The translations under genes were made by a program, and so were the position numbers. The notes below the pieces were generated by a model. That model saw only the letters and a list, made by a program, of their open reading frames with translations, did no database searches and was not told the DNA's origin. Below, piece by piece: positions 13,794 through 56,548 of a DNA stretch of 64,000 nt; the stretch's first letter is position 1, and each line of letters begins with the position of its first letter. The stretch covers positions 186,001 through 250,000 of the forward strand of contig NZ_NEXS01000003.1 in assembly GCF_002810445.1 (NCBI RefSeq), written 5' to 3'. Source of the stretch: Advenella sp. S44 (GTDB taxonomy: Bacteria > Pseudomonadota > Gammaproteobacteria > Burkholderiales > Burkholderiaceae_B).

Positions 13794-13909
13794 GTTATTT
13801 TTGAAAGAAAAGAGAATACAGGCGAGCGCTTAAGGTTAACATAGCGGATCTGATTTTAGGATTAAAGCCGGAACCATCGTTTTCAAAAAGTCGGTCCAAT
13901 AGGGAAGTT

Positions 13910-14503: not shown

Positions 14504-14585
14504 GAGGCCAGGAAGACATAAGGGTGCCTTCATATGGGGAGCCGGATGAATGTTGCCCCAAGCGCTACAGGCCACCATTTGTCAG

Positions 14586-14790
14586 TCAGTTTATCCGGGA
14601 TGGCAGCCACGTAACTATGGCAGGGGAATACACGATTAAAAGCAACATTAGTAACATTGCGCCAAGCAACGGGACCGTCAGTGCGATTACTTTGGTAACA
14701 GACACGCGTGCGATACCAGAGCAAAGAAAAAGGCATGTACCAACAGGTGGAGTAATCAACCCGAAGGCCATGCCAAGCCAATCTAATGTG
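14586..14790 (-). pseudogene. remnant of TRAP transporter large permease (DctM), C-terminal end
   Basis: The minus-strand frame reads IYYTLDWLGMAFGLITPPVG and then CLFLCSGIARVSVTKVIALT, ending at TGA near 14586. GLITPPVG followed by a hydrophobic helix is the hallmark of the last segments of DctM-type TRAP permeases. Only about 68 residues remain of the usual 420 or so, and no upstream part, small permease or binding protein is present. It is a 3' remnant, probably left by the rearrangement that brought in the neighbouring catabolic cluster. Confidence 0.75.
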
Positions 14791-14803
14791 TAATATATTA
14801 GAT
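14781..14803. repeat. inverted repeat at the end of the TRAP remnant
   Basis: ATCTAAT (14781-14787) and ATTAGAT (14797-14803) form 7-bp arms around 9 nt. It marks the upstream limit of the recognisable TRAP fragment. No transposase lies nearby. Confidence 0.45.
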
Positions 14804-14945
14804 GTCAGAAGGAACGGTGGACAACAAGGGATTACACGGATAAAGTGGCAATACATGCGTTGGTTGATCGGCGCGGTAGAGCTATTACGACGTCCATCGA
14901 CATATATTGAGGGTAGTAGCCGCGACTAGGTTGATTGGTCTCAGA

Positions 14946-15641
14946 CTAGTCTGGCCGATTTACTTCTGTTCGCATCGCGTGTATGGCGTCGATGTAGTTT
15001 GACAAATCTTCCAAAGACCTTTCTGGATTTCGTAAGCGCATGCTGTTTACAAGACTTTGTCTCAGATCATTGAAACCTTCATTTTGTGCTACTTCCTTTT
15101 GTGGGAACATTAGCGTTTCGATAAGTAGGTTTACGCATATACAGAGTAATTGATTGTGGGCCGCGCGAGCGATGAGTTTGAGTAGGTCATTATCAGCAGA
15201 CGTTCGGGATTTAAGCGGCTGACTCTGATTGGCGCATTCGTCCAGCGCGTGAAAATCATTTTCCGTGGCACGCGCGCATGCCGTCCGTACCGTAATTTCT
15301 AAAACCATGGTACGAAAAGCATACAGCTCTTGAATCGTAAACCGGCCAAGAAGCAGCAGATCGCACACCGATTGACTTAAAGTTGCAGTATCACCATCGC
15401 ATATAAAGGCCCCTGCATTTTTACCCGCATCAAACTTAACAATGCCCGCTTGCTCCAGAGTTCGCAGCGCCTCACGAACAGCAGGGCGCCCAACATTGAA
15501 TTGTGCAGCCAGAACGCGCTCCGATGGCAATCTGTCGCCTGGCTTTAGCTGTTTGGCAGCGATATTCTTGCGGATTTCCTGGCAAATTTTGTCGAAGACT
15601 CTTGGCTTTTTCCGGTCTCCGTGCTGAGAGCTAATGAGCAT
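14946..15641 (-). CDS. GntR family regulator, FadR/FCD type
   Basis: This 231-residue regulator has an N-terminal winged helix-turn-helix (about 12-78; LKPGDRLPSERVLAAQFNVG followed by RPAVREALRTLEQAGIV) and an all-helical FCD ligand domain. FCD regulators usually sense carboxylic acids or related catabolites. It is divergent from a second FCD regulator at 15689, with only 47 bp between starts. Codons and base use are AT-richer than in the flanking housekeeping genes. The ligand is unknown. Confidence 0.88.
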   Translation of the reverse strand: MLISSQHGDRKKPRVFDKICQEIRKNIAAKQLKPGDRLPSERVLAAQFNVGRPAVREALRTLEQAGIVKFDAGKNAGAFICDGDTATLSQSVCDLLLLGRFTIQELYAFRTMVLEITVRTACARATENDFHALDECANQSQPLKSRTSADNDLLKLIARAAHNQLLCICVNLLIETLMFPQKEVAQNEGFNDLRQSLVNSMRLRNPERSLEDLSNYIDAIHAMRTEVNRPD

Positions 15642-15646
15642 GGTGT

Positions 15647-15661
15647 AATATCTCCGATATT
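15647..15661. promoter_or_regulatory. inverted repeat in the divergent GntR promoter region
   Basis: AATATC-TCC-GATATT is a perfect 6-bp inverted repeat with a 3-nt spacer, placed 6 bp upstream of the minus-strand regulator start. It could be an operator for one of the two regulators; this is inferred from position only. Confidence 0.4.
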
Positions 15662-15688
15662 GAATAACCTCGAGACCTCAAATCATTC

Positions 15689-16351
15689 ATGACGCATTTT
15701 CCATCTCCTCAATTTGTCACGCTTCCCAGCCAAATCGCGCGTTCGATAGCAGATGCAATCATGAAAAATGAAGTAAAACCAGGCGCCAGCCTCCGGGAGA
15801 TTCCCTTGGCTGAAAAGTTTGGCGTGAGCCGAAGCAGTGTCCGGGAAGCGCTTCGGATCTTGGAACGGGATGGGGTAGTTTCTATCCGTCCGCGACATGG
15901 CGCCAAAGTCACCGAGCTGACAGCTACTGAAATGGCTGAAATCTACCAAATCAGGGCTGCACTACTGGGCGTCGCTTTCGAGCTATATGCTGCTCGCGTA
16001 AATATCAATGATCTGAAATTCCTCGAAGAAAAACTAGTAAAAATGGGAGCTATTGTTGCTAGCAGCGATGACATTAAAGCCTTAGTTCATGCGGATCTTT
16101 CGGCGAGTATGGCCGACTTCGTATTCCAGAATTGCGGCAATAAGAAGCTCGCAGCTTTACTGAATCAAATGTCTTTGCAAGTGGCCCGGTACACGTTGTT
16201 AGGTTTATCGACCGAGATTCGTCGCCAACAATCAATTCACAATTGGGACAAAGTACTCGATGCGTTCAGGTTACACGATGCAGCGCAGGCCAACCGTGTT
16301 GGAAAAAAGATGGTTAACGACACTTTAGACCACGCGTTGTCATTATTGTAG
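15689..16351 (+). CDS. GntR family regulator, FadR/FCD type
   Basis: This 220-residue regulator has a winged helix-turn-helix (about 10-75; EIPLAEKFGVSRSSVREALR) and an FCD domain of about 130 residues. It lies directly upstream of the TauD-type dioxygenase operon, whose promoter carries FadR-like palindromes, so it is the best candidate for that operon's repressor. The inducer is probably the substrate or an acid intermediate. It shares only family-level similarity with its divergent neighbour, so it is not a recent duplicate. Confidence 0.88.
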   Translation: MTHFPSPQFVTLPSQIARSIADAIMKNEVKPGASLREIPLAEKFGVSRSSVREALRILERDGVVSIRPRHGAKVTELTATEMAEIYQIRAALLGVAFELYAARVNINDLKFLEEKLVKMGAIVASSDDIKALVHADLSASMADFVFQNCGNKKLAALLNQMSLQVARYTLLGLSTEIRRQQSIHNWDKVLDAFRLHDAAQANRVGKKMVNDTLDHALSLL

Positions 16352-39976: not shown

Positions 39977-40140
39977 CTTACGATGGCAGGGGCTGCAAGA
40001 GCAGTAAAAAGTCAAAAAAAATGGTATAAAGCAACATCTTTGTAATTTTATTTTCAGAAAAGCGGTGAATAGTAAATTTATTTACATCGCTGGAGAGCGC
40101 CTTCGGCCATTCTCCGAAACCGTATCACACTTCATTGCCC

Positions 40141-41010
40141 ATGATTGAAACCGAATTTACGCGGGCGCTGGCCAAACGACTGCCAGAGTTGACTAAGCCC
40201 CAGCGGCGGCTTGGCGCCTATGTGCTCGAACATCCGTTCAAAGTCGCCATCATGTCGATTGACGAATTTGCACAGGCAGCGGGTGTTTCCAGCGCCAGTG
40301 CCAATCGCTTTGCGCGGGCGCTGGGTTACCCGGGTTATGCGCAGTTTCGGCAAAACATTATCAAAGGCTTCGAAGGCGTACTGGAATCGGTCAATCGACT
40401 GAAAAAAGAACAATCGTATCCGGCCAGCAATCAGGAAATCATGTCTAACGTACTTGTGGAGGGTCAGCGTAATCTGGAGAAAACCCGCCTTAACCTGAAC
40501 GCCGAGACCTGTGACAAGGCGGTCGATATGATTCTGGCCGCCCGGCGCATTTTTATACTGGGCCTTGGGACCAGTGGCTATTTGGCCGGATTGCTGGAAC
40601 GACGCCTGTTTGCGCACAATGACATGGTGGTCAGCCTTGCCGGTCCCGGCGGCTCAACCTACGCCGCCCGTCGATTGGCGCTGGTTGATGAGCAGGACTT
40701 GGTGATTGCGTTAACGTTCCCCCGGTATCTGGCCGATACGGTCAGGATCGTGCAAAAAGCCCATTCGCGTGGCGCCAGCGTGCTCGGTCTGACGGATAAG
40801 GCGACCTCTCCTGTTGTGCCGCACTGCGATTGCATTTTGTATATTTCCAGTGACAGCATTTACGATACCAATAGCGACCCAGTGGCACTGGCCCTGATTG
40901 ATGCGTTGATGGCCGCGCTGGACTATCGATCACCCTTTTCAGTTGAAATTGCCACTGAAGTGGCAGAAACCATTACCCCCTGGCTCATTCACGGAGAAAC
41001 ATCGGCATGA
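40141..41010 (+). CDS. MurR/RpiR family transcriptional regulator
   Basis: The 289-residue regulator has an N-terminal HTH_6 domain (about 1-77; MSIDEFAQAAGVSSASANRFARALG) and a C-terminal SIS domain (about 125-260; IFILGLGTSGYLAGLLERRL; ALTFPRYLADTVRIV). RpiR proteins sense phosphosugars or, as with MurR, cell-wall sugars. The start is set at ATG 40141. The next gene starts within its stop region (4-base overlap), so it is the first gene and probable regulator of the peptide-utilisation operon. Confidence 0.9.
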   Translation: MIETEFTRALAKRLPELTKPQRRLGAYVLEHPFKVAIMSIDEFAQAAGVSSASANRFARALGYPGYAQFRQNIIKGFEGVLESVNRLKKEQSYPASNQEIMSNVLVEGQRNLEKTRLNLNAETCDKAVDMILAARRIFILGLGTSGYLAGLLERRLFAHNDMVVSLAGPGGSTYAARRLALVDEQDLVIALTFPRYLADTVRIVQKAHSRGASVLGLTDKATSPVVPHCDCILYISSDSIYDTNSDPVALALIDALMAALDYRSPFSVEIATEVAETITPWLIHGETSA

Positions 41011-41978
41011 CAACTGCCATTATCGCCATTCACGGCGGGGCCGGCGCCCTGTCTCGCGAAACCATCACGCCGCAACAGCAGGCCGCCTACGAAGGCGCCT
41101 TGAACGATATCCTGGTCCAGAGCAGTGCCGTACTCGCGCAGGGTGGCTCGGCACTGGATGCCGTGACGCTGGCGGTGCGCATGCTGGAGGACTGTCCCCT
41201 GTTTAATGCCGGACATGGCTCGGTATTTACCAGTGCGGCCACGCATGAAATGGACGCTGCCATCATGGATGGCGCCACGCTGGGCTGCGGCTCGGTGGCA
41301 TCGGTCTCTACGGTGCGCAATCCGGTGCTGGCAGCAAGAGCGGTAATGGAAACCAGCGATCACGTTTTCTTTTGCGGCAAACCGGCAGAAGCGCTTGCCG
41401 AGGCGGCGGGTCTGGAAATGGTCGAACCGGACTACTTCAGCACGCCCCTGCGCCGCGAACAGCTTGATCGTGTTCGCGCCACCGGCACCGGTGGCTTTGT
41501 CCTGGATCACGACGCGGTGGAAAAAGTGCAGCGCGACAATGCCGCACCGCTGGATGAAGACAAAAAAATGGGCACGGTTGGAGCAGTCGCGCTGGACCAG
41601 GCTGGCAACCTGGCTGCAGCGACATCGACCGGCGGTATGACCAACAAACAGCCTGGCCGGGTTGGCGATTCGCCCATCATCGGCGCCGGCTGCTACGCCA
41701 GCAATCACAGTTGCGCAGTGTCCAGCACCGGTACCGGCGAAATGTTTATTCGCAGTGTCGCGGCGTATGACGTGGCTGCACAAATGCAATACGCCGGTCG
41801 CACGCTGGTGCAGGCGGCCGACAATGTCGTGTTCGACAAACTGCCGGCTATCGGCGGCGTGGGCGGCCTGATTGCTGTTGACGCCACGGGTAATGTGGCG
41901 TTGCCATTTAACTCAGAAGGCATGTATCGGGGCTACTTGCGGATCGGGCAAGATCCGGTAGTGGAAATTTATCGCTGA
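41007..41978 (+). CDS. iaaA: Isoaspartyl peptidase/L-asparaginase (Ntn hydrolase)
   Basis: The 323-residue precursor of a plant-type asparaginase has the autocleavage site Gly189-Thr190 ([11 protein letters not shown]), giving the Thr nucleophile, plus NAGHGSVFT and [22 protein letters not shown]. The mature enzyme splits beta-aspartyl dipeptides and asparagine. In E. coli iaaA precedes gsiABCD, as here. It overlaps the regulator gene by 4 bases. Confidence 0.95.
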
Positions 41979-42022
41979 CTCGATACCTGAGCGGCGCTGT
42001 AGGCGGTACGGAGAAACAGCAA

Positions 42023-43939
42023 GTGAATACAAATGTGATTAATACAAACACCGACAAGCCAGCGGCAAACAATACTGAAGCGCTCGCGCCGGACCACGTT
42101 CTGGACGTACGCAATCTGAGTGTCAGTTTTGTTGGTTCTGAAAGAACGGTGCAGGCGGTTCAGGATTTGTCCTTTACCGTTGGACGCGGCGAAACGCTAG
42201 CCATCGTCGGCGAATCCGGCTCCGGTAAATCGGTGACCTCGCTCTCGCTTATGCGCCTGGTCGAGCATGGTGGCGGTCGCATCACCAGTGGTCAAATGCT
42301 GTTCCGTCGGCGCCAGGGGCAGGTTGTGGACCTGACCGGCCTGTCCGGTGCGCAATTGCGCGCCATTCGCGGGGCCGATATGGCCATGATTTTTCAGGAA
42401 CCGATGACGTCGCTCAATCCGGTATTCTCGGTCGGCGACCAGATCGCTGAATCGATTCGCCTGCACCAGGGACTGAGCAATCAGCAGGCCATGGCGCAAG
42501 CCTTGCGCATGCTCGATCAGGTGCGCATTCCCGAAGCCCGTGCCGTGCTGTCACGGTTCCCTCATCAACTGTCCGGCGGCATGCGTCAGCGTGTCATGAT
42601 TGCCATGGCACTGGCCTGTAAGCCGGCTCTACTGATTGCCGACGAACCCACGACTGCGCTGGATGTGACCATTCAGGCGCAGATCCTGCAATTGATCCGG
42701 GAACTGCAGAAAGAAATGAACATGGGCGTGATCTTTATCACGCACGATATGGGCGTGGTGGCCGAAGTGGCCGATCGCGTTCTTGTCATGTTCAAGGGAA
42801 ACAAGGTCGAACAGAACAGCGCCCAGGCCATTTTCCATAATCCGCAACATGCCTATACGAAGGCGTTGCTGTCGGCCGTGCCGCGGCTGGGGTCAATGAA
42901 TGGCACGTCATTACCGGCCCATTTTGACTTGCTGTCCCTCCAACAGGCGGGTGCTGATGAAACGGTGACCCCGCACGAGCCGGTGGTGCTGGAGCCCGAT
43001 CGCCAGGCCGGTCCGATCCTGCAAGTCAAGGACCTGGTCACGCGGTTCGATGTGACCAGCGGCATTTTCAATCGCGTTGCCAAGCGCGTGCATGCCGTTG
43101 AAAAAGTCAGTTTCGATCTATATCCGGCTGAAACCCTGGCCCTTGTCGGAGAGTCCGGTTGCGGCAAATCCACGACGGGCCGCTCGCTGCTGCGCCTGAT
43201 CCAGGCGCACTCGGGACAGATTCTGTTCCAGGGACGCGATATCAGCAAGCTCAGTACGCAAGATATGCAGGCAGTGCGGCGCGATATTCAGTTTATTTTC
43301 CAGGACCCGTACGCCTCGCTGGATCCGCGCCAGACCGTCGGCTACTCCATCATGGAACCTTTGCTGATCCATCGCGTGGCCAGTGGCCGCGACGCGTTGG
43401 CGCGCGTCGAATGGCTGCTGGAAAAAGTCGGCCTGCCGCCAGCCATGGCACAGCGCTACCCGCATGAGTTTTCCGGTGGTCAGCGTCAGCGGATTTGCAT
43501 TGCCCGGGCACTGGCGCTCAACCCCAAGGTGGTCATCGCAGATGAGTCTGTCTCGGCGCTCGATGTATCGATTCAGGCGCAAATTGTGAATCTGTTGATG
43601 GATCTGCAAAAAGAATTTGGTATTTCATTTCTGTTTATTTCACATGACATGGCAGTGGTTGAGCGGATCAGCCATCGAGTGGCAGTCATGTATTTGGGGC
43701 AGATTGTCGAGCTGGGATCGCGTCGTGAAATATTCGAAAACCCCCAGCATCCTTACACACAAAAACTCATGGCAGCGGTTCCCATTGCCGATCCGCAGCG
43801 CCGGCACAGGCTTGCTACGTTAATGGCAGGCGATATTCCCAGTCCGGTGCGCGCAATTGGCGATGAGCCGCAGGTATTGCCGCTGGAGCAGGTGGGTACG
43901 GACCATTTTGTTGCGCGTCACTCGGTCGGTATCTACTGA
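42023..43939 (+). CDS. gsiA: Dipeptide/glutathione-type ABC transporter, fused ATP-binding protein (GsiA-like)
   Basis: The 638-residue protein holds two complete ABC ATPase halves. The first has [23 protein letters not shown] and [11 protein letters not shown]; the second has [23 protein letters not shown] and [11 protein letters not shown]. Each half ends with an oligopeptide-type C-terminal domain. It starts with GTG, 45 bases after iaaA. Fusion and order (iaaA-A-B-C-D) match the E. coli glutathione importer, but specificity for glutathione is inferred from order only. Confidence 0.9.
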
Positions 43940-43946
43940 TTTTTAT

Positions 43947-43980
43947 GCCGTTCTGTCTGAACGGCGTTTAACCTCTTTTT
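43947..43980 (+). terminator. hairpin between gsiA-like and gsiB-like genes
   Basis: GCCGTT (43947-43952) and AACGGC (43960-43965) form a 6-bp stem, and GTTTAACCTCTTTTT follows after it. It looks like a weak terminator or attenuator inside the operon. Confidence 0.55.
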
Positions 43981-44002
43981 ATCCTTAGCAGGGAGATTTT
44001 TC

Positions 44003-45553
44003 ATGAAGTCTTTTTATCTTCGCAAAGCAGTGCTGGTCCCGGCCATGATGGCGTGCCTGGCCTTTTCCCACACCGCGCTGGCAGCCAAAGATGTCACGGT
44101 AGCGGTCCCTTATGGTTTTGATTCCCTTGATCCCTATAACACCAATTCGACACAGTCGCAGGCGGTGGGCAAGGGCTGGTACGAAGGGCTGTTCATGTTC
44201 GATCTTGATTTCAAGATCCACCCGCTGCTGGCTACCGGTTATGAGGTCAGTGAAGATGGCCTGACCTATACATTCAAGCTGCGTGAGGGCGTTAAATTTC
44301 ATGATGGCACCGACTTTAATGCCGAAGCGGTCAAAGTCAATTTCGAGCGAGTCATGGATCGCAGTAATGCGCTGGGACGCTACAACCAGTTCAAGGACAT
44401 TGCGAAGGTCGATGTGATCGATCCGACCACCGTTAAAGTTATCCTCAAAGCACCGTTCTCCGCCTTCATTAACAATCTGGCTCACCCCTCAGCCATGATG
44501 ATTTCGCCTGCGGCCCTGGAGAAATACGGCAAAGATATCAATCTGCACCCGACGGGTACGGGACAATATACGTTCGTTGAATGGAATCCGGGTCAGAATG
44601 TGAAGATGAAAAAATTCGACGGTTACTGGAACAAGGAACAGCTGGCCAAGGTCGATACTATCAATTTCCGTGTGGTGACCGATAACAATACGCGCGCTGC
44701 GGTCATGCAGACTGGCGAGGCGCAGTTTACCTATCCGATTCCGTATGAACAGACATCGATCCTGAAGAAAAATGACAAGCTTGATTTGCTTGCCGAGCCG
44801 TCCATTATTGCGCGCTATATCGCCATGAATAATCAGGTCAAGCCTTTCGACAATCCGAAAGTGCGCGAAGCCATGAACTATGCGATCAATAAAGAAGCCC
44901 TGAACAAGGTTGTATTTAACGGATACGCACGTGTTGCCGAAGGTGTGGTTCCAGACAAGGTCGAATTTGCGCAAAAAATGAAACCCTGGCCCTATGACCC
45001 GAAAAAGGCCCGCGAACTGTTGGCTGAAGCCGGTTACCCACAAGGATTTGAGACCACGCTGTGGAGCGCTTACAACGATGGAACTTCTGTCAAGGCGATC
45101 CAGTTTATTCAGCAACAATTGCGCCAGGTCGGTGTAAAAGTATCGGTCGAGGCTCTGGAAGCCGGCCAGCGCGTACAACGGGTTGAATCGGTGCAAAAAC
45201 CGGAAGACGCCAAGGTGCGTATGTATTACATTGGCTGGTCAGCCTCTACCGGCGAGGCCAACTGGGCATTGAGCCCGTTGCTGGCAGGCGATTCATGGCC
45301 GCCTACCTTCGCCAACTTCTCTTATTATAAAAACGAGCAAGTTGACAAGGATCTGTCCGACGCCTTGAAAACGACCGACAAAGCCCAGAAAGCCGAGTTC
45401 TATAAAGATGCGCAGGAACAGATTTACAAGGATGCGCCCTGGGTATTCCTGAATACGGCCGATACCGTAGCGGCACGCAGCAAAAAGCTTGACGGTTTTC
45501 ATGTCATGCCCGATGCTTCTTACTACTTCAGGGATGTCAGTCTGAAGGACTGA
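44003..45553 (+). CDS. gsiB: Peptide-type ABC transporter substrate-binding protein (family 5, GsiB-like)
   Basis: The 516-residue exported protein has a signal peptide ending ALAA (residue 28) and the SBP_bac_5 pattern GLTYTFKLREGVKFHDGTDF. Later segments ARYIAMNNQVKPFDNPKVRE and YNDGTSVKAIQFIQQQLRQV continue the fold. It delivers peptides to the GsiC/GsiD-like permease. It is bracketed by two hairpins, which could let it be made in excess over the membrane parts. Confidence 0.93.
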   Translation: MKSFYLRKAVLVPAMMACLAFSHTALAAKDVTVAVPYGFDSLDPYNTNSTQSQAVGKGWYEGLFMFDLDFKIHPLLATGYEVSEDGLTYTFKLREGVKFHDGTDFNAEAVKVNFERVMDRSNALGRYNQFKDIAKVDVIDPTTVKVILKAPFSAFINNLAHPSAMMISPAALEKYGKDINLHPTGTGQYTFVEWNPGQNVKMKKFDGYWNKEQLAKVDTINFRVVTDNNTRAAVMQTGEAQFTYPIPYEQTSILKKNDKLDLLAEPSIIARYIAMNNQVKPFDNPKVREAMNYAINKEALNKVVFNGYARVAEGVVPDKVEFAQKMKPWPYDPKKARELLAEAGYPQGFETTLWSAYNDGTSVKAIQFIQQQLRQVGVKVSVEALEAGQRVQRVESVQKPEDAKVRMYYIGWSASTGEANWALSPLLAGDSWPPTFANFSYYKNEQVDKDLSDALKTTDKAQKAEFYKDAQEQIYKDAPWVFLNTADTVAARSKKLDGFHVMPDASYYFRDVSLKD

Positions 45554-45590
45554 TCCGGCCTGCTTCGCAGTTTAATTGCAATTGAAATAG

Positions 45591-45614
45591 CCGCGACACT
45601 TCAGGGTGTCGCGG
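45591..45614 (+). promoter_or_regulatory. hairpin in front of the gsiC-like start
   Basis: CCGCGACAC and GTGTCGCGG form a perfect 9-bp stem with a 6-nt loop, ending 4 bases before the ATG at 45619. It would occupy the ribosome site of that ATG. Translation may instead start at ATG 45631, or the hairpin may limit permease expression. Confidence 0.6.
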
Positions 45615-45618
45615 CCCA

Positions 45619-46551
45619 ATGGATTCAAAAATGCTTTCCTATCTGGTTAAACGGATTTTCGGAATGATACCGACGCTGATGCTGGTCTGCGTGGTGGTGT
45701 TCCTGTTCGTACATATGCTGCCCGGCGATCCGGCCAGGCTTGCTGCAGGGCCCGAGGCAGATGCCGAGACGGTGCAGAACATCCGCGAGCAACTGGGGCT
45801 GGATTTGCCTCTGCCGCAACAGTTCGGTCATTATCTTCTTAACCTGAGCCAGGGTGACCTGGGAACATCATTACGCACCAAGCGGCCGGTTTTGACGGAA
45901 ATTGCCGCGCGCTTTTCGCCCACGCTGCTGCTGACCATCGCCAGCATGGTCTGGTCTGTGATTTTCGGTCTGGTGATCGGCGTGGTGTCTGCCGTGTGGC
46001 GCAACCGCTGGCCCGATCGGCTGTTTATGACATTGGCGGTTTCAGGCATTTCCTTCCCGCCATTTGCTTTGGGAATGATCCTGATCCAGATTTTTGCTGT
46101 CCAGTTGGGTTGGCTGCCTTCGGTGGGCGCGACCAGCTGGCAGCATTATATTTTGCCGTCCTTTACCCTGGGGGCGGCCGTAGCAGCCATTATGGCGCGC
46201 TTTACCCGAGCCTCGTTCGTCGAGGTGATTCAGGAAGACTTCGTGCGTACGGCGCGAGCTAAAGGTTTGTCTGAAAAAATCGTCATCGTCAAACATACGC
46301 TGCGCAACGCATTGATTCCCGTGATTACGATGATGGGCCTGCAGTTCGGCTTTCTGCTGGGGGGCTCAATCGTGGTGGAAACCGTCTTTGGCTGGCCCGG
46401 GATGGGCACGCTGCTGGTTGATGCCGTCTCGGCACGGGACTATCCGATTATTCAGGGTCTGGTTCTGCTGTTCTCCTTTGAATTCATTTTGATTAATCTG
46501 ATTGTTGACGTGCTGTATGGCGTGATCAATCCGACTATCCGTTACAAATAA
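45619..46551 (+). CDS. gsiC: Peptide-type ABC transporter permease (GsiC/DppB-like)
   Basis: The 310-residue inner-membrane protein has six predicted helices. Its N-terminus is [20 protein letters not shown], continuing with HMLPGDPA, and the EAA loop is [20 protein letters not shown]. It pairs with the following permease. Starts at 45619 and 45631 are both possible; the hairpin upstream favours the second. Confidence 0.92.
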
Positions 46552-46561
46552 CGGGACAGAC

Positions 46562-47464
46562 ATGACGCAAGTAACTTCTTCTCCGATAGAATCGCTGCCG
46601 CCACAAAGGGAACGCATCCGCACCCCGATGACGGAATTTATCCGCAAGTTTCGCAAGCAGCACCTGGCTGTGGTCGCGGCATGCTTCATTATTGCGCTTG
46701 TCATTGTTGCCTGCCTGGCGCCATGGCTCGTGCCTTTTGATCCAGAGAACTATTTTGACTACGATCGTATTAACCAGCCGCCGTCATTTCTGCACTGGCT
46801 GGGTGTCGATTCGCTGGGTCGCGATATTTTCAGCCGGATTGTGATGGGCACACGTATCTCGCTTGCTGCGGGCTTTATTTCAGTGGCACTGGGCGCCATT
46901 ATCGGCACGGTGCTGGGCCTGCTTGCCGGCTACTACGAGGGCTGGTGGGAACGGTTCGTCATGCGGATTTCAGATGTATTGCTGGCTTTCCCTGGCATTT
47001 TGCTTGCCATCGGCGTGATCGCAGTGCTCGGTCCCAGTATGGTCAATGTCGTTATTGCCGTTGCGGTATTCAGTATTCCGGCATTTGCACGGCTGGTACG
47101 GGGCAATACCTTGTCGCTGAAAAACATGACATACATCGAGGCGGTGCGAAGCATCGGCGCCTCTGATTTTACGATTATTTTCAAACATATTCTGCCGGGT
47201 ACGATATCGCCTATCCTGGTATACGGCACTATGCGTATCGGGACATCCATTATTACGGCGGCATCGTTGTCGTTTATCGGGCTGGGCGCACAACCGCCGA
47301 CGCCGGAATGGGGCGCAATGCTTAACGAGGCGCGCTCAGATATGGTGCTGGCCCCGCATGTGGCCATTTTCCCGTCATTGGCCATCTTCCTGACCGTGCT
47401 GGCATTCAATCTGCTTGGCGATGGCTTGCGGGACGCACTGGATCCGAAGATCGACCGGCAATAA
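46562..47464 (+). CDS. gsiD: Peptide-type ABC transporter permease (GsiD/DppC-like)
   Basis: The 300-residue membrane protein has the DppC pattern [36 protein letters not shown] and the EAA loop [20 protein letters not shown]. It completes the importer with gsiA, gsiB and gsiC. It starts 10 bases after the preceding stop and is followed by the DmpA-type peptidase. Confidence 0.93.
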
Positions 47465-47512
47465 CTTCGTGGTGTCCGCAGCCAGGCTGCCGACACTGCC
47501 AAACGAGTGTAT

Positions 47513-48616
47513 ATGACTGATTTTGATAATCAATTGGCGACCGTGACAGCGCCAGTGGTGGGCATCTTGCCTGCCGGGCCGCACAATCGCATCACCGATG
47601 TGCCCGGTGTAAAAGTGGGACACGTCACATTGGCTCGTGGTGCGATCCAGACTGGCGTCACCGTTATCTATCCGCACGCGGATGATTTGTTCCTCAACAA
47701 GGTGGCGGCCGGCGCGTCGGTCATCAACGGCTTTGGCAAAAGCACGGGATTGCTGCAGTTGCAGGAACTGGGTGTCATTGAAACGCCGTTGGCGCTAACC
47801 AATACTTTTTCCGTACCGATAGTGGCGCAGGCCCAGATACGCCAGGCGATTGCGGCCAACCCGAAAATCGGACGCGAATGGCCGACGGTCAATCCGCTCG
47901 TGCTGGAGTGCAATGACGGGTATCTAAATGACATTCAGGCCATGGCCGTGGCGGAAACGGACTACTTGAACGCTTGCGCTAACGCCGCTGTGTCATTGGA
48001 GCAAGGCGCCGTGGGCGCAGGGCGGGGCATGAGCAGCTTTGGACTGAAGGGCGGCATCGGCACGGCTTCGAGGATTGCACAACAGGAAGGATCGCTGGCA
48101 GCCAGTGCGCCGGACTATATCGTGGGCGCGCTTGTGCTGTCCAATTTTGGCAAGCTGCGCCAGTTGCGCGTCAATGGCAGCATGCTGGGCCTGGATATCA
48201 AGAGGCGCATGGCGCTGCGCGCGGCAACGCGTCAGCCAACGCCAGGCATACCCGAAGATTCGCCTGATAAGGGGTCGATCATCATTGTGCTGGCTACCGA
48301 TGCCCCACTTGACGCCCGGCAATTGCGGCGCTTAAGCCTGCGTGCGGCGGCCGGCCTGGCACGTACGGGTTCTAGCTTCGGACATGGCAGTGGTGATATT
48401 GCAATTGCATTTGCACCCGTCATGCGAACCGGCGAGCAATTGCATGCCGTTGGGGCACAGCCTGCGCCCCTGCATGAAGTACAACTGGATCCATTATTTG
48501 ATGCTGCTGCCGAAGCCACCGAGCAGGCAATCATCAATTCGCTGTGGTCTGCCTCGGCGGTAACAGGACGTGATGGAAACACACGATTGTCAATCACGGA
48601 CTGGCTGCACGACTGA
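47513..48616 (+). CDS. P1 family peptidase (DmpA/BapA type, Ntn-like)
   Basis: The 367-residue precursor has the family N-terminus NRITDVPGVKVGHVTL and the probable self-cleavage site Gly254-Ser255 in DKGSIIIVLATDAPLDARQL, placing the Ser nucleophile at the start of the beta chain. NGFGKSTGLLQL and GAVGAGRGMSSFGLKGGIGT are conserved. DmpA-type enzymes release N-terminal D- or L-Ala/Gly residues; BapA relatives cut beta-peptides. It directly follows the importer. GTG 47507 is an alternative start. Confidence 0.88.
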   Translation: MTDFDNQLATVTAPVVGILPAGPHNRITDVPGVKVGHVTLARGAIQTGVTVIYPHADDLFLNKVAAGASVINGFGKSTGLLQLQELGVIETPLALTNTFSVPIVAQAQIRQAIAANPKIGREWPTVNPLVLECNDGYLNDIQAMAVAETDYLNACANAAVSLEQGAVGAGRGMSSFGLKGGIGTASRIAQQEGSLAASAPDYIVGALVLSNFGKLRQLRVNGSMLGLDIKRRMALRAATRQPTPGIPEDSPDKGSIIIVLATDAPLDARQLRRLSLRAAAGLARTGSSFGHGSGDIAIAFAPVMRTGEQLHAVGAQPAPLHEVQLDPLFDAAAEATEQAIINSLWSASAVTGRDGNTRLSITDWLHD

Positions 48617-48716
48617 AGCGCGATAATGGCCGCCAAGATGGGCGTTGCACTCTGCATTGTGCGGCGCCCGTACGATGATATAAGCAGGAAAGTCGGTAAA
48701 GCCAATAATGGGCAGC

Positions 48717-48788
48717 AGAATCACAAACTTGCAGGACTACAGGATCACAAGATCTAAAGATCACAGAATCACAGAATCACAGAATCAC
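48717..48788. repeat. 8-bp tandem repeat array, nine units
   Basis: Nine octamers stand in unbroken register: AGAATCAC, AAACTTGC, AGGACTAC, AGGATCAC, AAGATCTA, AAGATCAC and then three identical AGAATCAC. The array ends 11 bases before the ATG at 48800. It occupies the place where a ribosome binding site would be expected. Confidence 0.85.
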
Positions 48789-48799
48789 GGGATAAATCA

Positions 48800-49624
48800 A
48801 TGAAGGTACTGGTATCAACAGACATAGAAGGCGTTGCGGGCGTCGTGGACGCGCAGCAGGTTCGCGCCGGTAATGTGGAGTATGAACGTGCACGACAGTG
48901 GATGACGGCAGAGGCCAACGCGGCCATTGCCGGCGCCTTCGATGGCGGCGCCACGGCGGTGTATGTCAATGATTCGCATGGTGCCTTCCGTAATATGGTC
49001 GCTTCTGATATTGACGAGCGCGCCATCTTAATCAGCGGCAAGCCGCGCGTATACAGCATGATGACCGGTCTGGAATTCGGCGTGGGCGGTGTGGCACTCA
49101 TCGGGCATCATTCACGGGCTCAGGGCCGTGGTGTACTGGCCCACACCATTAACAGCTTCGCTTTTGCCCGGGTCATGATCAACGATATGGAGTTGGGCGA
49201 ACCCGGGCTTTATGGTGCGCTTGCCGGCGAGCTCGGCGTGCCCGTCATTTTCGGCAGTGGCGACCAATTTCTCATCCAGGAGAACCGGGATCTTTTTGAT
49301 ACTGCCGGATGGGTCGAAACCAAACAGGCCATGGGACACGGCAGCGCGGCAACGCTGACGCCGCAAGCCGCTTGTGCGCGCATACGTGAGGGTATGTGCA
49401 AGGCTGTCCAGGCGAGCCTGAACCAGCCAATGAAACCTTTTGTGATTAGCGCGCCTTATGAATGCCGGCTGCAAACCAACTCTGCGGCGCTGGCCGATGC
49501 ATTCTGTCTGCTGCCCGGTACGGTCCGTATTGATGGCGTCACGCTCTCGTTTACGGCAGATAGTATTGAGCATGTTATTCGCACTTTGAACGTGTTTTCC
49601 ACCATGTCGGTTGCGCTGCGCTAG
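48800..49624 (+). CDS. M55 family D-aminopeptidase (DppA-like)
   Basis: The 274-residue enzyme starts MKVLVSTDIEGVAGVV with metal ligands D8 and E10. Further zinc ligands are H60 (NDSHGAFRN) and H104 (GHHS), and H115 is the likely catalytic residue. Bacillus DppA removes N-terminal D-Ala from peptides and is linked to a dipeptide importer, as here. No clear ribosome site is seen; the 8-bp repeat lies in its leader. Confidence 0.9.
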   Translation: MKVLVSTDIEGVAGVVDAQQVRAGNVEYERARQWMTAEANAAIAGAFDGGATAVYVNDSHGAFRNMVASDIDERAILISGKPRVYSMMTGLEFGVGGVALIGHHSRAQGRGVLAHTINSFAFARVMINDMELGEPGLYGALAGELGVPVIFGSGDQFLIQENRDLFDTAGWVETKQAMGHGSAATLTPQAACARIREGMCKAVQASLNQPMKPFVISAPYECRLQTNSAALADAFCLLPGTVRIDGVTLSFTADSIEHVIRTLNVFSTMSVALR

Positions 49625-49659
49625 TTCCATTGTCCATCGCGTGCGAGCGCCGCAGCGGT

Positions 49660-50304
49660 TCAACCCAGCGCGCGGATACCCGCAGCAGTCCGGATGATCG
49701 CGCGCAGGGCGGGCTTGCTGTCCGAGCTTGATGGAAAGACCGATACCGGCGCCTTCAGTTGCAGGCTAGCCAGCAGTGCTTGCACTGTCTTTGGCTCGGG
49801 GTGATAGATATGAAGCGCTTCCAGCGACAAGCCGTGATCGGGCATGGATAATACGGGCAACCGGGGCGTCTGCCACTCAATAAGCGCCGGCGCCATACCA
49901 TCCAGGGGCGATATGCCGGTTTCAGGAATCGTAATCAGCCAGTCCAGGTTTGCGCGCTGCATGGGCGTGACGGGGCCCAACGGCTGGGTGCTGGCGGCTG
50001 CATGGGTTCGGATATTGGTAGTGCGCACGACCCAGGCCGACAGCGAGGCCGTGCTGTCCGGCGTCATGGTATCCAGTCCAAACCAGCGTGGCCGCTGCGG
50101 CGCGGGCGCGTTCGGGTCAATGGCGATCACTTCCAGATAACAGTCGGGGCCGCAGCGCAACAGACGATTATGTGTGCCCATTTTTGCGTGTTCTCCGCCA
50201 GGCAGGGGTTCGACGCCCAGACAGGAGCGCACATAAGCGGCGCCTGCATCCAGGTCGGCAGCGGTCACGACAATGTGATCGATCGTGGTCTGTGGCGCCG
50301 TCAT
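49660..50304 (-). CDS. VOC family glyoxalase-like protein
   Basis: The 214-residue protein begins with IDHIVVTAADLDAGAAYVRS (a VOC beta strand with a likely metal His10) and continues HNRLLRCGPDCYLEVIAID, giving a second ligand Glu. This glyoxalase-like group is common next to catabolic genes, and its activity is mostly unknown. Its ATG overlaps the stop of the racemase-like gene by 4 bases, so the two are co-translated. It converges on the M55 peptidase gene. Confidence 0.8.
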   Translation of the reverse strand: MTAPQTTIDHIVVTAADLDAGAAYVRSCLGVEPLPGGEHAKMGTHNRLLRCGPDCYLEVIAIDPNAPAPQRPRWFGLDTMTPDSTASLSAWVVRTTNIRTHAAASTQPLGPVTPMQRANLDWLITIPETGISPLDGMAPALIEWQTPRLPVLSMPDHGLSLEALHIYHPEPKTVQALLASLQLKAPVSVFPSSSDSKPALRAIIRTAAGIRALG

Positions 50305-51125
50305 GATACCTCCGGTTTTTTGGCTCCGGCTTGCAGGCCGGTTGTGTCGTCGCTTGTGCCGCTACGGTGCGAAAACGTATCGAGTACCGCGAGCGCCAGC
50401 GCATCGATCGAGTCCGAAATTACGACTGGAAATGCGTCCCGGCGCGACGGCGGGATGGCCAGCGGCAATTCGGTGCAGCCCAGGATCACCGCCCGCGCGC
50501 CCATATCGACAAGGCGCGTGACGGCCCTGGCCGCCGGTGCAAAGGCCTGTTCATTTTGGTTGCATTTGACCGCGGCAATGGCCTGCACGGACCAATCACG
50601 AATGCTATTGTCGTTACCCGTCATGGGTTCATATCCCGCAGCGATCAGGGCATCCTGGTAAAGCCGCAGCTGCATGGTAGCGGGTGTGCCCATGATGCCC
50701 ACCGGTCCATCACAAATGCCATTGCGCCGCAGGTCCTGGATCACCGACTCGACAATATGCAGGACCGGTACCTGTACACTGTCGCGCAGCTGTTCAAACC
50801 ACAGATGCGCGGTATTGCAGGGAATGGCAATGCATTGGGCGCCCCAGCGCTGCAGGTCCTGCATGCCCTGGCGCATGGCAGGCAACGGACTTGGCCCACC
50901 TTCCAGTTGCGCCGCCGTGCGATCAGGAACGCGCGGATCATTGCGCAGCAATACCGGAATATGGGCCTGATCAGCCGTAACCGGGGTCAATTGCACCAGC
51001 CTGGCGGCAAAGGTGGCCCCGGCAAGCGGTCCCATGCCGCCGAGTACGCCAAGTACGGGCCAGACAGGGGGTGCTGCGGACAGCGCTGAAGAAAAGGAGG
51101 TCGTGTGAGGCAGTGACATGAACAT
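50301..51125 (-). CDS. Aspartate/glutamate racemase family protein
   Basis: The 274-residue enzyme has LGVLGGMGPLAGATF, the first catalytic Cys in AIPCNTAHLWFE and the second in ILGCTELPLAI. This two-cysteine pattern is that of YgeA-type amino acid racemases, which interconvert L and D forms of aspartate, glutamate or other amino acids without cofactor. An N-terminal stretch of about 20 residues precedes the domain. Together with the peptidases next door it suggests D-residue metabolism. Confidence 0.88.
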   Translation of the reverse strand: MFMSLPHTTSFSSALSAAPPVWPVLGVLGGMGPLAGATFAARLVQLTPVTADQAHIPVLLRNDPRVPDRTAAQLEGGPSPLPAMRQGMQDLQRWGAQCIAIPCNTAHLWFEQLRDSVQVPVLHIVESVIQDLRRNGICDGPVGIMGTPATMQLRLYQDALIAAGYEPMTGNDNSIRDWSVQAIAAVKCNQNEQAFAPAARAVTRLVDMGARAVILGCTELPLAIPPSRRDAFPVVISDSIDALALAVLDTFSHRSGTSDDTTGLQAGAKKPEVS

Positions 51126-52880: not shown

Positions 52881-54128
52881 TTAACCGAAACGACTCAGCG
52901 CAAATGGCGCCAGTTCTGTTGCACTTGTCTGGCCTGCCATCGCGCGGGCTAGCAGCGTGCCCGTGTTGACAGAGCCGGTCAGTCCCAGATGCCCGTGTCC
53001 AAAACCGGTCCATAATCCCGGCATACCGGCGACGGGACCGATGACGGGTAACGAGTCGGGCATGCAAGGCCGATGCCCCATCCACGTGGTAAAGCCGCTG
53101 GTATCCAGATTGTCCAGGCCGGCCAGTGCATGTGTTTTGAGCAGCAGGGCCCGTTGCGTATTCATGGGCTTGCGCGTGCCGCCAAATTCGACGGTGCCGG
53201 CTACCCGCAACTGACCCTGCATCGGATTCATGAAAACTTTCCGGTCTGCCAGTACCACAACGCGCGACAGATTAACGCCCGGGTTGGGCGCCTGCAGGTG
53301 ATAGCCACGCTGGCTTTCCAGCGGAACTCGCAGGTTCAGTGTTGCCAGCAGGTCGCCAGAGCCCATGCCCGCGCATACCACCACATGATCGGCCTGCCAG
53401 GATTGTTCATGGCCGTGTACATGCCAATTGTCATTGTCACGACGCAGTCCGCTGATTCCTGCAGTGACGAATGTCACGCCAAGTTCGGTATTGGCTGTGA
53501 CCAGTGCTTGTGAATACTGAAACGGGTCGCTGACCCAGCCGTCATTGGGCAGAAACCAGCCGCTGCAATAGCGGCCACTGATTGCCGGCTCTAATTCGGC
53601 AATTGCCGAGCGGCCCATCGAGTGCATCTCCAGACCGAACTCGGCCCGAAGCTGCCACGATGCCTTGTCCTTGTCACGCTCATTGTCATTCGGATATAAA
53701 TGCAATTGCCCGGTGCTCTTGATCAGGTGGGCGCAGCCGATCTGCCGGGCCAGCTCCTGATGGTTGCGTACTGAACCGGTGAGCAACTGGTGCAGCGCGA
53801 CGGCGATCTGCTGAACGCGTTGCGGCCTGGATGCAGCAATGAAGCGCAGAAACCACGGCATGGCCGACAACAGATAGCCTGGTGGAACATGCAGCGCACT
53901 CGTGCTGTCAAGTAACATGGACGCCGCCTGCCGCAAGACGCCAGGCATGGCCAGTGGCGCTATCGAGCCTTCAGACAGTGCGCCGGCATTGCCGAAAGAG
54001 CATTGCGATCCCGGGTTCTGTGCGTCAAAAATCGTGACCTGCCAGCCCGCCTTGGCAAGGGAATGTGCTGTACACAAGCCGACAATACCGGCGCCGATAA
54101 TTGCAACTGAGTTATTTTTCCTGGACAT
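52881..54128 (-). CDS. FAD-dependent D-amino acid dehydrogenase (DadA-like)
   Basis: The 415-residue DAO-family flavoprotein has an FAD motif at its N-terminus (VAIIGAGIVGLCTAHSLAKAG), then SQCSFGNAGALSEGSIAPLA and, near the end, WMGHRPCMPDSLPVIGP and FGHGHLGLTGSVNTG. The pattern is that of D-amino acid dehydrogenases, which oxidise D-amino acids to 2-oxo acids and feed electrons to the respiratory chain. The ATG at 54128 is chosen because the FAD motif follows directly; 54164 is possible. Confidence 0.85.
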   Translation of the reverse strand: MSRKNNSVAIIGAGIVGLCTAHSLAKAGWQVTIFDAQNPGSQCSFGNAGALSEGSIAPLAMPGVLRQAASMLLDSTSALHVPPGYLLSAMPWFLRFIAASRPQRVQQIAVALHQLLTGSVRNHQELARQIGCAHLIKSTGQLHLYPNDNERDKDKASWQLRAEFGLEMHSMGRSAIAELEPAISGRYCSGWFLPNDGWVSDPFQYSQALVTANTELGVTFVTAGISGLRRDNDNWHVHGHEQSWQADHVVVCAGMGSGDLLATLNLRVPLESQRGYHLQAPNPGVNLSRVVVLADRKVFMNPMQGQLRVAGTVEFGGTRKPMNTQRALLLKTHALAGLDNLDTSGFTTWMGHRPCMPDSLPVIGPVAGMPGLWTGFGHGHLGLTGSVNTGTLLARAMAGQTSATELAPFALSRFG

Positions 54129-54260
54129 GGATGATTCTCGATATGGCTTGTTGATAGGCTGCATTGTACTGGCTCAAACCCGGGTAGAATATGCTGATTG
54201 ATATAAACCGATAGGAACACCACCCATTGCCCGGCAGACCCATGATGAAACAGGAGTAAT

Positions 54261-55232
54261 ATGCAGACTTTGCCCACTTATGACGACGTAGTTGCCGCAG
54301 CAGAAAGAATCAAGGGCTACGCGCATCGTACGCCGGTGCTGCGTTCCAGGACCATAGATGCGCAGCTGGGCGCCAGCCTGTATTTCAAGTGTGAAAACCT
54401 TCAGCGCATAGGCGCATTCAAGTTCCGTGGCGCCTTCAACGCGATCGCGGCACTGGACAGTGCACACCGGCGCGCTGGTGTGATCGCGTTTTCTTCGGGC
54501 AACCACGCACAAGGGGTGGCGCTGGCCGCCTCACTGCTCAAGGTCAAGGCCACGATCGTGATGCCGCTGGATGCGCCGGCCGCCAAGCTGGCAGCCACGC
54601 GCAGCTATGGCGCACAGATCGTGCAATATGATCGCTACACGGAAGATCGCGCCGCCATCACTAAGGCATTGGCCCAGGAACACGGCTATACTCTTATCCC
54701 GCCCTACGATCACCCCGATGTCATCGCCGGGCAGGGTACGGCCACCATGGAGTTGATGCAAGAGACGGGCCCACTGGACCTGCTCTTTGTCTGTCTGGGC
54801 GGTGGCGGATTACTGTCGGGCTCGGCCCTCGCAGCACGAGCCCTTGCTCCGCAATGCCGGATCTATGGTGTAGAGCCCGAGGCCGGCAACGACGGACAGC
54901 TGTCCCTGCGCGCCGGGCATATCGTACATATCGATATGCCCAAGACAATAGCCGATGGTGCGCAGACACAGTTTTTGGGTAACTACACTTTTCCTATCAT
55001 TGCCCGCGAGGTTGCCGATATTTTGACTGTCACCGACCAGCAATTGGTCCAGGCCATGCGCTTTTATGCCGAGCGCATGAAAATACTGGTGGAGCCTACG
55101 GGGTGCCTGTCGCTGGCCGGCGCCAGCAGTGTCAAAGACCTGTTGCAAGGTAAGCGTGTCGGCATCATTATCAGCGGCGGTAATGTTGATCTGGCCAATT
55201 TTTGCGCTTTGCTGGGTGCCGATACTCAGTGA
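54261..55232 (+). CDS. Threonine/serine dehydratase or racemase family PLP enzyme
   Basis: The 323-residue fold-type II PLP enzyme has K54 in GAFKFRGAFNAI, SSGNHAQGVALAA and the phosphate loop GGGGLLSGS. There is no ACT domain, unlike ilvA at 12.3 kb. Enzymes of this size include catabolic threonine dehydratase, serine racemase and threo-3-hydroxyaspartate ammonia-lyase. Divergence from a D-amino acid dehydrogenase favours a catabolic or hydroxyaspartate-type role. Its stop overlaps the MFS gene start. Confidence 0.85.
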   Translation: MQTLPTYDDVVAAAERIKGYAHRTPVLRSRTIDAQLGASLYFKCENLQRIGAFKFRGAFNAIAALDSAHRRAGVIAFSSGNHAQGVALAASLLKVKATIVMPLDAPAAKLAATRSYGAQIVQYDRYTEDRAAITKALAQEHGYTLIPPYDHPDVIAGQGTATMELMQETGPLDLLFVCLGGGGLLSGSALAARALAPQCRIYGVEPEAGNDGQLSLRAGHIVHIDMPKTIADGAQTQFLGNYTFPIIAREVADILTVTDQQLVQAMRFYAERMKILVEPTGCLSLAGASSVKDLLQGKRVGIIISGGNVDLANFCALLGADTQ

Positions 55233-56548
55233 CCAAATCAGCAAACTGGCCGATGTTGATGGCAGGACTTTGCGCCAGCCTGGTAGGCATCGGGCTGGCG
55301 CGCTTTGCGTACACGCCGCTGTTGCCGGCCATTATCAATGCACAGTGGTTTGCGGCTTCCACAGCCGCTTACCTGGGCGCGGCCAATCTTGCCGGGTATC
55401 TTGTAGGTGCGTTGCTGGGCGCCGGCATTGCGCGGTACATTGGAACCCGCGCTGCCTTGCGCCTCATGATGCTGCTGGCGACGCTGGCGTTTTTTGCCTG
55501 CGCCATGCCGATATCATTTGTTTGGTTTTTCCTTTGGCGTTTTTTGTCGGGCGTCTCTGGTGGCGCACTGATGGTGCTTGCTGCCACTGCAATCCTGCCC
55601 TATATCCAGCCGTCGCGTCGCGGACTGGCCAGCGGCGTGATCTTTACGGGCGTGGGATTGGGTGTCGCGGCATCGGGTACGCTGATGCCAATGCTGTTGC
55701 AACTGGGATTGACCCAAACCTGGCTCGGACTGGGGCTGCTGTCTTTTCTTTTGACTGTGCTGGCCTGGCCCGGTTGGCCCCAAGACCTGCCGACATCACA
55801 GTTTGCTTCCGAGAATCCATTCATGTCTGAGGCGGCCACAACGCACAATCTTATTGCCGCTGCTGCCGCGCAACGAACCGCAGTTCAGGCTACCGTAAAG
55901 GCAGAAGACAAGGCCAACGGCGCAGATCCTCGAATGACGATGCAAACCCCGCCATTGCGCGCGCCGTCTACGGGTACCGGTAGTCGAGCCCTGCCCGTGC
56001 TCTATCTTGTCTACGGCCTGAATGCGGTGGGATTAGTGGCGCATATGGTGTTTCTGGTCGATTATGTCGCACGCGGATTGGGCTGGGGCGTCAATACAGG
56101 ATCCTTGTTTTGGGTTATTTATGGTCTGGGTGCGATGGCTGGCCCCCTGTGCAGCGGCGCCGCGGCCGATCGCATTGGCTACGCGCCGGTCCTGCGTTGG
56201 GCACTGCTGCTGCAGTTGCTCATGGTGTGTCTTCCCGTTGTCAGCACATCGCCCATCCTGCTCGGTATCTCCAGCTTTGTAGTGGGTGCGTTCACGCCAG
56301 GTATCGTACCGCTTGTTTTGGGGCGCTTGCGCGAGATGCTGCCACATTCGCCAGCTGATCAGAGAGTGGCCTGGAGCAGGGCCACAACCGCTTTTGCGCT
56401 AATGCAGGCGGCCGCCGCCTATGCAATGTCATTCGTGTTTGCCCGTTCCAACGGACAGTATCCGCTGCTTTTTATGCTGGCGGCGCTGGCGCTTGCTATT
56501 GCATTTATCCTGCTCCTGCTGGTTCCTGGCAACAAGCCCCGCGCCTGA
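55229..56548 (+). CDS. YbfB/YjiJ family MFS transporter
   Basis: The 439-residue membrane protein begins near GTG 55229 (MTKSANWPMLMAGL), with the family motif GIGLARFAYTPLLPAI. It has 12 predicted helices in two halves, joined by a long Ala/Thr-rich cytoplasmic loop (about 195-260). Substrates in this family are unknown. The GTGA overlap with the dehydratase gene implies co-translation, so it probably moves the substrate or product of that enzyme. Confidence 0.85.
   Translation: MTKSANWPMLMAGLCASLVGIGLARFAYTPLLPAIINAQWFAASTAAYLGAANLAGYLVGALLGAGIARYIGTRAALRLMMLLATLAFFACAMPISFVWFFLWRFLSGVSGGALMVLAATAILPYIQPSRRGLASGVIFTGVGLGVAASGTLMPMLLQLGLTQTWLGLGLLSFLLTVLAWPGWPQDLPTSQFASENPFMSEAATTHNLIAAAAAQRTAVQATVKAEDKANGADPRMTMQTPPLRAPSTGTGSRALPVLYLVYGLNAVGLVAHMVFLVDYVARGLGWGVNTGSLFWVIYGLGAMAGPLCSGAAADRIGYAPVLRWALLLQLLMVCLPVVSTSPILLGISSFVVGAFTPGIVPLVLGRLREMLPHSPADQRVAWSRATTAFALMQAAAAYAMSFVFARSNGQYPLLFMLAALALAIAFILLLLVPGNKPRA

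Follow-up and report, generated by a model that had tools for sequence, protein, structure and literature searches.

The question raised by positions 40141-51125 of a 64,000-nucleotide stretch of Advenella sp. S44 DNA (contig NZ_NEXS01000003.1; the whole stretch is called the window below) is which peptides are taken up and cleaved by the products of a gene cluster in which a Gsi-type peptide importer is coded together with an isoaspartyl peptidase (IaaA), an S58 aminopeptidase and an M55 D-aminopeptidase. A sequence-only reading of the window had proposed one import-and-degrade unit for iso-, beta- or D-residue peptides, and all genes that it named were present where it had placed them. The genome measures 4.3 Mb and its nearest named relatives are Advenella. 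Eight same-strand genes (rpiR, iaaA, gsiA-D, S58, M55) make up one unit at 40141-49624, which, judged from its sequence and from its relatives, is probably a dedicated catabolic operon for protease-resistant peptides. The genes of the unit are:

40141-41010, plus strand: RpiR-family regulator (HTH_6 and SIS domains), probable operon regulator, ATG start at 40141
41007-41978, plus strand: IaaA, beta-aspartyl (isoaspartyl) peptidase, Asparaginase_2 family, N-terminal nucleophile (Ntn) hydrolase, from family match and alignment
42023-43939, plus strand: GsiA, double ATPase of the peptide importer, 1035.4 bits vs the GsiA cut-off of 1077
44003-45553, plus strand: GsiB, substrate-binding protein with a hydrophobic N-terminal segment, 737.8 bits vs the GsiB cut-off of 594
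45619-46551, plus strand: GsiC permease, 563.6 bits vs a cut-off of 463
46562-47464, plus strand: GsiD permease, 561.3 bits vs a cut-off of 484
47507-48616, plus strand: S58 (DmpA/BapA family) aminopeptidase, no obvious signal peptide
48800-49624, plus strand: M55 D-aminopeptidase, no obvious signal peptide

The gaps within the unit are, in order, -4, 44, 63, 65, 10, 42 and 183 bases, the largest preceding M55, and the open frame of rpiR opens with TTG at 40135, ahead of the ATG. When N-termini were read by eye, a hydrophobic segment was seen in GsiB and none in IaaA, S58 or M55, so the peptides would naturally be imported first and cleaved in the cytoplasm afterwards. GsiB would bind short peptides with D-residues and/or side-chain (iso) linkages, and GsiC, GsiD and the double ATPase GsiA, by orthology with the Escherichia coli importer, would bring them in. 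Three cytoplasmic N-terminal hydrolases would then act, M55 taking D-residues, S58 taking D-, beta- or small residues and IaaA taking beta-linked aspartate. The freed D-amino acids would go to lineage-specific disposal: alphaproteobacteria would use a D-amino-acid transaminase (D-AAT), an enterobacterial branch DgcN/DgcA, and the window organism enzymes coded elsewhere or next door. We infer the hydrolase roles from family and intact active-site residues, and likewise infer the direction of flow and the regulation.

Active-site residues were counted in those rows long enough to align, with residue roles that we take from the DppA, DmpA and EcAIII literature. The S58 protein scored 365.3 bits against a family cut-off of 23.9, and its autoprocessing pair Gly256-Ser257 and Asn213 were invariant (105/105 aligned rows); the Gly-Ser pair and the Asn are shared with Ochrobactrum anthropi DmpA and with BapA, which belong to the same family. 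It differs from DmpA in being nearer to 2drh (272.5 bits), a structure named as a hypothetical D-aminopeptidase and not BapA, than to DmpA itself (1b65, 148.1 bits), and in having Asn136 (Asn in 103/105 aligned rows) at the position of DmpA Tyr146, an active-site residue. M55, aligned to 1hi9, keeps D8, E10, H60, H104, H115 and E134, which correspond to the DppA metal ligands and catalytic His, in 102/102 aligned rows; its 169.2 bits lie below the cut-off of 430 of the DppA equivalog NF058634, so it is a member of the M55 family and not DppA proper. IaaA falls under the E. coli equivalog cut-off (427.1 vs 567 bits). Thr190, Arg218, Asp221 and Gly244 are kept in 125/125 aligned homologues and Thr243 in 93/125, and these residues supply the Thr nucleophile and Arg/Asp substrate clamp of an isoaspartyl peptidase. 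Re-shaping of IaaA for gamma-D-Glu was considered and is unsupported, the Arg/Asp clamp being equal to that of E. coli IaaA. The window genome holds a second, distant S58 gene (C8:811584-812642, 46% identity) with no gsi or M55 matches adjoining. In Advenella incenata (locus L098), positions 9120-16127 code for an RpiR protein (44% identity), an S58 protein (59%), a distant GsiB-like protein (24%) and another S58 protein (44%), likely a paralogous peptide system.

Conservation of the gene set was examined in draws that were spread over groups, so that the counts below are not natural frequencies; most relatives were drawn with S58 as bait, and S58 is present in these by construction. Within the window's family, an S58 match (E <= 1e-20) was found in 20 of 61 genomes. 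Without the genome of the window itself and a distant match at 41% identity, 18 loci were left for comparison, all of which hold iaaA, gsiABCD, S58 and M55 together, 14 with rpiR as well; S58 identity to Advenella relatives is 78-79%, and the joined GsiBCD columns are 95% identical with those of locus L081. A phylum-wide draw gave S58 matches at E <= 1e-60 in 32 of 397 genomes, the window's own counted, and gsiABCD, S58 and M55 stood together in 15 of 32 neighbourhoods (31 of the draw's matches and one other). With a scan of named genomes, from which the best 80 of 109 loci were used, S58 was found in 143 loci, 106 of them with at least three gsi genes and M55; removal of 4 duplicates left 102 distinct loci. 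All eight genes are present in 78 of these, 16 lack rpiR, 6 lack rpiR and iaaA, and 2 lack rpiR, iaaA and one of the four gsi genes; a regulator or IaaA was counted when it matched that of the window at E <= 1e-10 over half the length. The full set stands in the window's order in 66 of 73 Burkholderiales-type loci and in several orders in 12 of 16 alphaproteobacterial loci, L056 and L061 being assigned there, and group f169 to the Enterobacteriaceae, from named tree neighbours. The five Budvicia-like loci all carry every gene except rpiR, and the eight loci of the enterobacterial branch all lack rpiR, six of them also iaaA. Because the same ordered set recurs across many genera, its association is far beyond chance. 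The gene set is conserved beyond close strains, and the neighbourhood survey suggested with the sequence-only reading finds iaaA, gsi, DmpA-type (S58) and M55 genes side by side across genera.

Because of the bias of the S58 bait, a search with GsiB as bait was run as a control, over 200 genomes of one order and 119 genomes of a further family. In the order, 11 of 200 genomes matched at E <= 1e-140, the window's own counted; S58 lay beside gsi in 11/11 and M55 in 10/11. These matches are the window, eight loci mapped before and two that were new; M55 is missing from one of the new pair, L212.

The other family, that of genome G509 (by its tree neighbours Enterobacteriaceae), bears on the relation to E. 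coli, where iaaA-gsiABCD is followed by pdeI with no S58, M55 or rpiR adjoining. The order iaaA-gsiA-gsiB-gsiC-gsiD is that of the window operon, and of the window's subunits GsiB, GsiC and GsiD exceed the cut-offs of the E. coli families, while GsiA falls just short; the best solved relative of GsiB is 1uqw. A close GsiB was found in 58 of the 119 genomes, and 40 of these loci were mapped together with E. coli. Unlike the window, E. coli and 39 of the 40 further loci lack S58 and M55, and iaaA is kept in 31 of the 41; the sole exception (L180) shares its gsiBCD with Budvicia diplopodorum. In a 141-row tree, all 40 rows free of S58 and M55 group to the same side of a single branch, adjacent to Budvicia, Leminorella and Schmidhempelia; these three carry both genes. 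A more careful 51-row tree, in which row L212 is labelled with both peptidases though it lacks M55, agrees for 8 such rows (support 100/100, 100% of 200 bootstrap trees). The E. coli transporter branch thus nests inside the larger family. The outgroup of the 51-row tree is very distant (branch 4.5), and both trees warn of long branches meeting, those of L061/L164 and that of the dgc genes. The position of the root is therefore a parsimony reading, and so is the choice of loss over gain; by this reading the simplest history would be one loss of the D-peptidases, and the E. coli locus looks like a cut-down relative.

A passage in PMC6236770 describes GsiB as essential for Gsi-mediated glutathione (GSH) import in E. 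coli, and one in PMC10355420 calls iaaA an open reading frame of unknown function beside gsiABCD. It is conceivable, if somewhat doubtful, that GsiB-family importers are specialised for side-chain-linked N-terminal acidic residues, gamma-D-Glu in murein peptides and beta-Asp in isoaspartyl peptides, with gamma-L-Glu of GSH as a by-product; the operon would then be ancestral and the E. coli importer a remnant that keeps the pump and IaaA. If true, E. coli GsiABCD-IaaA would be a stripped form of a D-/isopeptide scavenging operon, and the presence of IaaA there would be explained. Annotation is affected as well, as gene tables of relatives label these transporters glutathione importers.

Genes for D-amino acids were found beside the operons of relatives. 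A D-AAT gene lies inside the block or at most 144 bp away on the same strand in 12 of 102 loci, all of them among the 16 alphaproteobacterial loci. The N-acetyl-D-Glu racemase gene dgcA lies at most 76 bp upstream in 8 of 102, namely in every one of the eight enterobacterial-branch loci, and six of these also have dgcN, roughly 1 kb upstream; a passage of PMC10845958 mentions the conversion of D-Glu to L-Glu by the DgcN-DgcA pathway. When ten such proteins were scanned against NCBIfam, 4 of 5 DgcA proteins exceeded 400 bits (L063 at 390.2), the one DgcN passed, 2 of 3 transaminases exceeded 320 (L080 at 260.9), and the insert in L159 proved to be a nickel transporter. When 70 flank proteins of non-Burkholderiales loci were sorted by Pfam family (27 of 29 loci, L079 and L157 left out; some boundaries taken from annotation), the counts were LysR 11, Aminotran_4 9, MR_MLE 7 and DUF1611 (DgcN) 4. 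This tally was not blind, as D-AAT and dgc genes annotated in L077, L078, L080 and L166 had been added on purpose. The same 70 include 4 Nramp-type metal transporter genes (set including L114, L125, L128 and L130). The corresponding Burkholderiales-type census covered 86 of 97 listed flank proteins, 11 being dropped for length or room, and found scattered families only. Xaa-Pro aminopeptidase-like M24 proteins were among the commonest (5/86), perhaps an extra peptidase in some lineages.

D-AAT, S58 and M55 genes also occur together without gsi on plasmids of Ochrobactrum sp., Rhizobium daejeonense and Shinella sp., and a Sinorhizobium meliloti plasmid has D-AAT and S58 together without gsi or M55. 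In these four loci (L161, L163, L167 and L165), D-AAT and S58 (with M55 in three) adjoin amino-acid or other ATP-binding cassette (ABC) transporters and not gsi. The arrangement dgcN-dgcA-gsiABCD-S58-M55 is found on one Klebsiella and one Pantoea plasmid (L077, L079); S58 matches in 20 Klebsiella plasmid records suggest more plasmid copies, two plasmids having been read.

Of these accessory enzymes, DgcA consumes D-Glu and the transaminase other D-residues, which on comparative grounds makes peptidoglycan stem peptides the most likely natural source of substrate. Such peptides fit best, damaged-protein peptides fit partly, and GSH is left without a cleaving enzyme; of the substrates proposed earlier, D-residue (peptidoglycan-type) peptides gain comparative support and glutathione-like compounds lose it. 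The earlier idea of a single import-and-degrade unit is borne out by the conservation of the set, the intact active sites and the adjoining D-amino-acid disposal genes of relatives. If true, the operon would be a widespread, regulated route in Proteobacteria to protease-resistant peptides, cell-wall nitrogen included.

Several observations weigh against this interpretation. A related S58 gene stands without the full set in 17 of the 32 phylum-draw neighbourhoods; in L062 its neighbour is a more distant gsi-like transporter, in L065 an M55 gene. A Sulfitobacter plasmid carries an S58 gene without D-AAT or M55 neighbours. DgcN-DgcA pathway genes adjoin gsiABCD-S58-M55 in the enterobacterial branch but not in the window, and neither D-AAT nor dgc genes were found in the examined flanks of the 73 Burkholderiales-type loci. 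In the window genome no DgcA reaches the cut-off, and the best PRK06680-type transaminase scores 279 vs 320. Operons of the dpp-ykf kind serve murein peptides, and the classic muropeptide enzymes of that kind (LD-carboxypeptidase, Ala-Glu epimerase, gamma-D-Glu-DAP peptidase) are absent from the unit; the window genome yielded one S66 gene, on another contig. Finally, IaaA keeps an L-beta-aspartyl clamp that is needless for any standard Gram-negative stem peptide.

Among known systems, Bacillus subtilis dppABCDE likewise codes an M55 D-aminopeptidase with an Opp/Dpp-type importer; the window operon differs in adding S58, IaaA and RpiR and in the score of its M55 (169 vs the DppA cut-off of 430). 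YejBEF-YepA of Agrobacterium, an ABC importer for peptidoglycan fragments according to the abstract of PMC9790009, is likened here by description only. No title or abstract describing the gene set was found among those listed from the open-access literature, which is weak evidence of absence.

IaaA is the most direct of the isoaspartyl enzymes and occurs in 94 of 102 loci, which favours another source of substrate, namely age-damaged proteins. Succinimide chemistry in these gives L-isoAsp, D-isoAsp and D-Asp; IaaA, S58 and M55 could clear such products, and the last step for D-Asp would fall to an Asp/Glu racemase or a D-AAT. Of the 102 loci, 6 have a racemase-family gene close to the operon, in three different arrangements. 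This account nonetheless appears unlikely: DgcN/DgcA, named for D-Glu, accompany the whole enterobacterial branch, six of whose eight loci have no IaaA beside the operon, and D-Glu is not known to arise from Asp damage.

Still less likely is an operon for GSH acquisition, as homology annotation to E. coli Gsi would have it. GsiB, GsiC and GsiD do exceed the NCBIfam glutathione-importer cut-offs, and a glutathione reductase gene (gor) lies 1.7 kb downstream in the window. However, GSH alone is unlikely as substrate because no gamma-glutamyl hydrolase is among the operon genes, and no S58 or M55 enzyme is known to cut gamma-L-Glu-Cys. In the examined flanks gor was seen only in Advenella (3/102), and two groups of relatives carry D-amino-acid genes instead. 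The essential role of GsiB in GSH import by E. coli Gsi (PMC6236770) speaks for this account, and GSH may be imported among other things. Breakdown of other D-, beta- or iso-rich natural peptides (non-ribosomal peptides, cyanophycin dipeptides, beta-peptides) is improbable, for although the enzymes span beta-Asp, beta-amino and D-residues and family S58 includes beta-peptidyl aminopeptidases, no cyanophycinase or polymer hydrolase is among the flank families listed (the 25 commonest of 46 and of 84) and the closest solved S58 structure is 2drh, not BapA.

Regulation of the catabolic operon would involve the RpiR protein, acting through palindromes before its own gene:

40041-40056, no strand: operator-like palindrome 1, TGTAATTTTATTTTCA, 1 mismatch to GWAAATNNATTTWC
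40071-40086, no strand: operator-like palindrome 2, AGTAAATTTATTTACA, 30 bp after palindrome 1

The sole exact match to GWAAATNNATTTWC in the 64-kb window is at 40072, in palindrome 2. One to three sites with at most 1 mismatch were found in 66 of 79 rpiR upstream regions, a count that is partly circular because the motif was picked on the same 79 regions; after single-letter shuffling, 0.05 regions on average and at most 1/79 had a site, and stretches inside gsiA gave 0/100. The spacing of 30-32 bp is repeated in L083, L088, L026, L046, L116 and L140, and 10 of the 13 upstream regions without a palindrome are alphaproteobacterial. Elsewhere in the genome, 6 places have 1 mismatch to TGWAAATNNATTTWCA. 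Nine open frames at 4 of these were scanned, of which 3 had no family match; the families seen were DHDPS, acyl-CoA dehydrogenase, gyrB, TnsA-like, aldehyde dehydrogenase and LysR, and a wider regulon is not claimed. Identity of the regulator with MurR, the N-acetylmuramic acid 6-phosphate sensor, was ruled out (30.4 bits vs a cut-off of 408), leaving assignment to the RpiR family only. A sigma-70 promoter scan was uninformative (6 found vs 7.2 expected).

The genes that follow the operon are:

49660-50304, minus strand: Glyoxalase_3 gene, 4-base overlap with the racemase gene, absent from the sequence-only reading
50301-51125, minus strand: Asp_Glu_race family gene, from family match, outside the unit
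52881-54164: D-amino-acid dehydrogenase (dadA), start ~1.8 kb past the racemase gene
54261-55232: pyridoxal phosphate (PLP) dehydratase, start ~3.1 kb past the racemase gene, best NCBIfam match threo-3-hydroxyaspartate ammonia-lyase

The convergent racemase, dadA and the dehydratase had been counted as parts of the system, a claim that is not supported; close homologues of the racemase, the glyoxalase-like gene, gor and dadA adjoin the operon in Advenella alone among the named genera. Both the dehydrogenase and the dehydratase, said to follow within 2 kb, exist, the latter starting farther out. The stretches examined around the 18 family loci showed no homologue of any of five window genes (racemase, glyoxalase, gor, dadA, dehydratase). 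In the examined flanks of the 102 loci, a glyoxalase homologue was found in 3, gor in 3 and dadA in 2, all Advenella, and racemase-family genes in 6, of which 3 are in Advenella (81-90% identity) and 3 elsewhere (30-32%). The racemase, glyoxalase, gor and dadA are ruled out as operon members by these neighbourhood counts. For the dehydratase no homologue was seen in the layouts of 20, 36 and 80 neighbourhoods, in which Advenella loci may end before it. The window racemase exceeds the NCBIfam cysteate racemase (CuyB) cut-off (232.5 vs 190). The racemase-family genes of L049, L096 and L112 lie 175-252 bp from the operon, one downstream on the same strand and two divergent upstream, possibly a recurrent link with D-Glu/D-Asp. 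Glyoxalase_3 and racemase genes both adjoin the operon in three Advenella loci (L081-L083). Outside the operon, window positions 54261-56548 hold a threo-3-hydroxyaspartate ammonia-lyase-like gene (547.9 bits vs 452) that overlaps an MFS_4 transporter frame.

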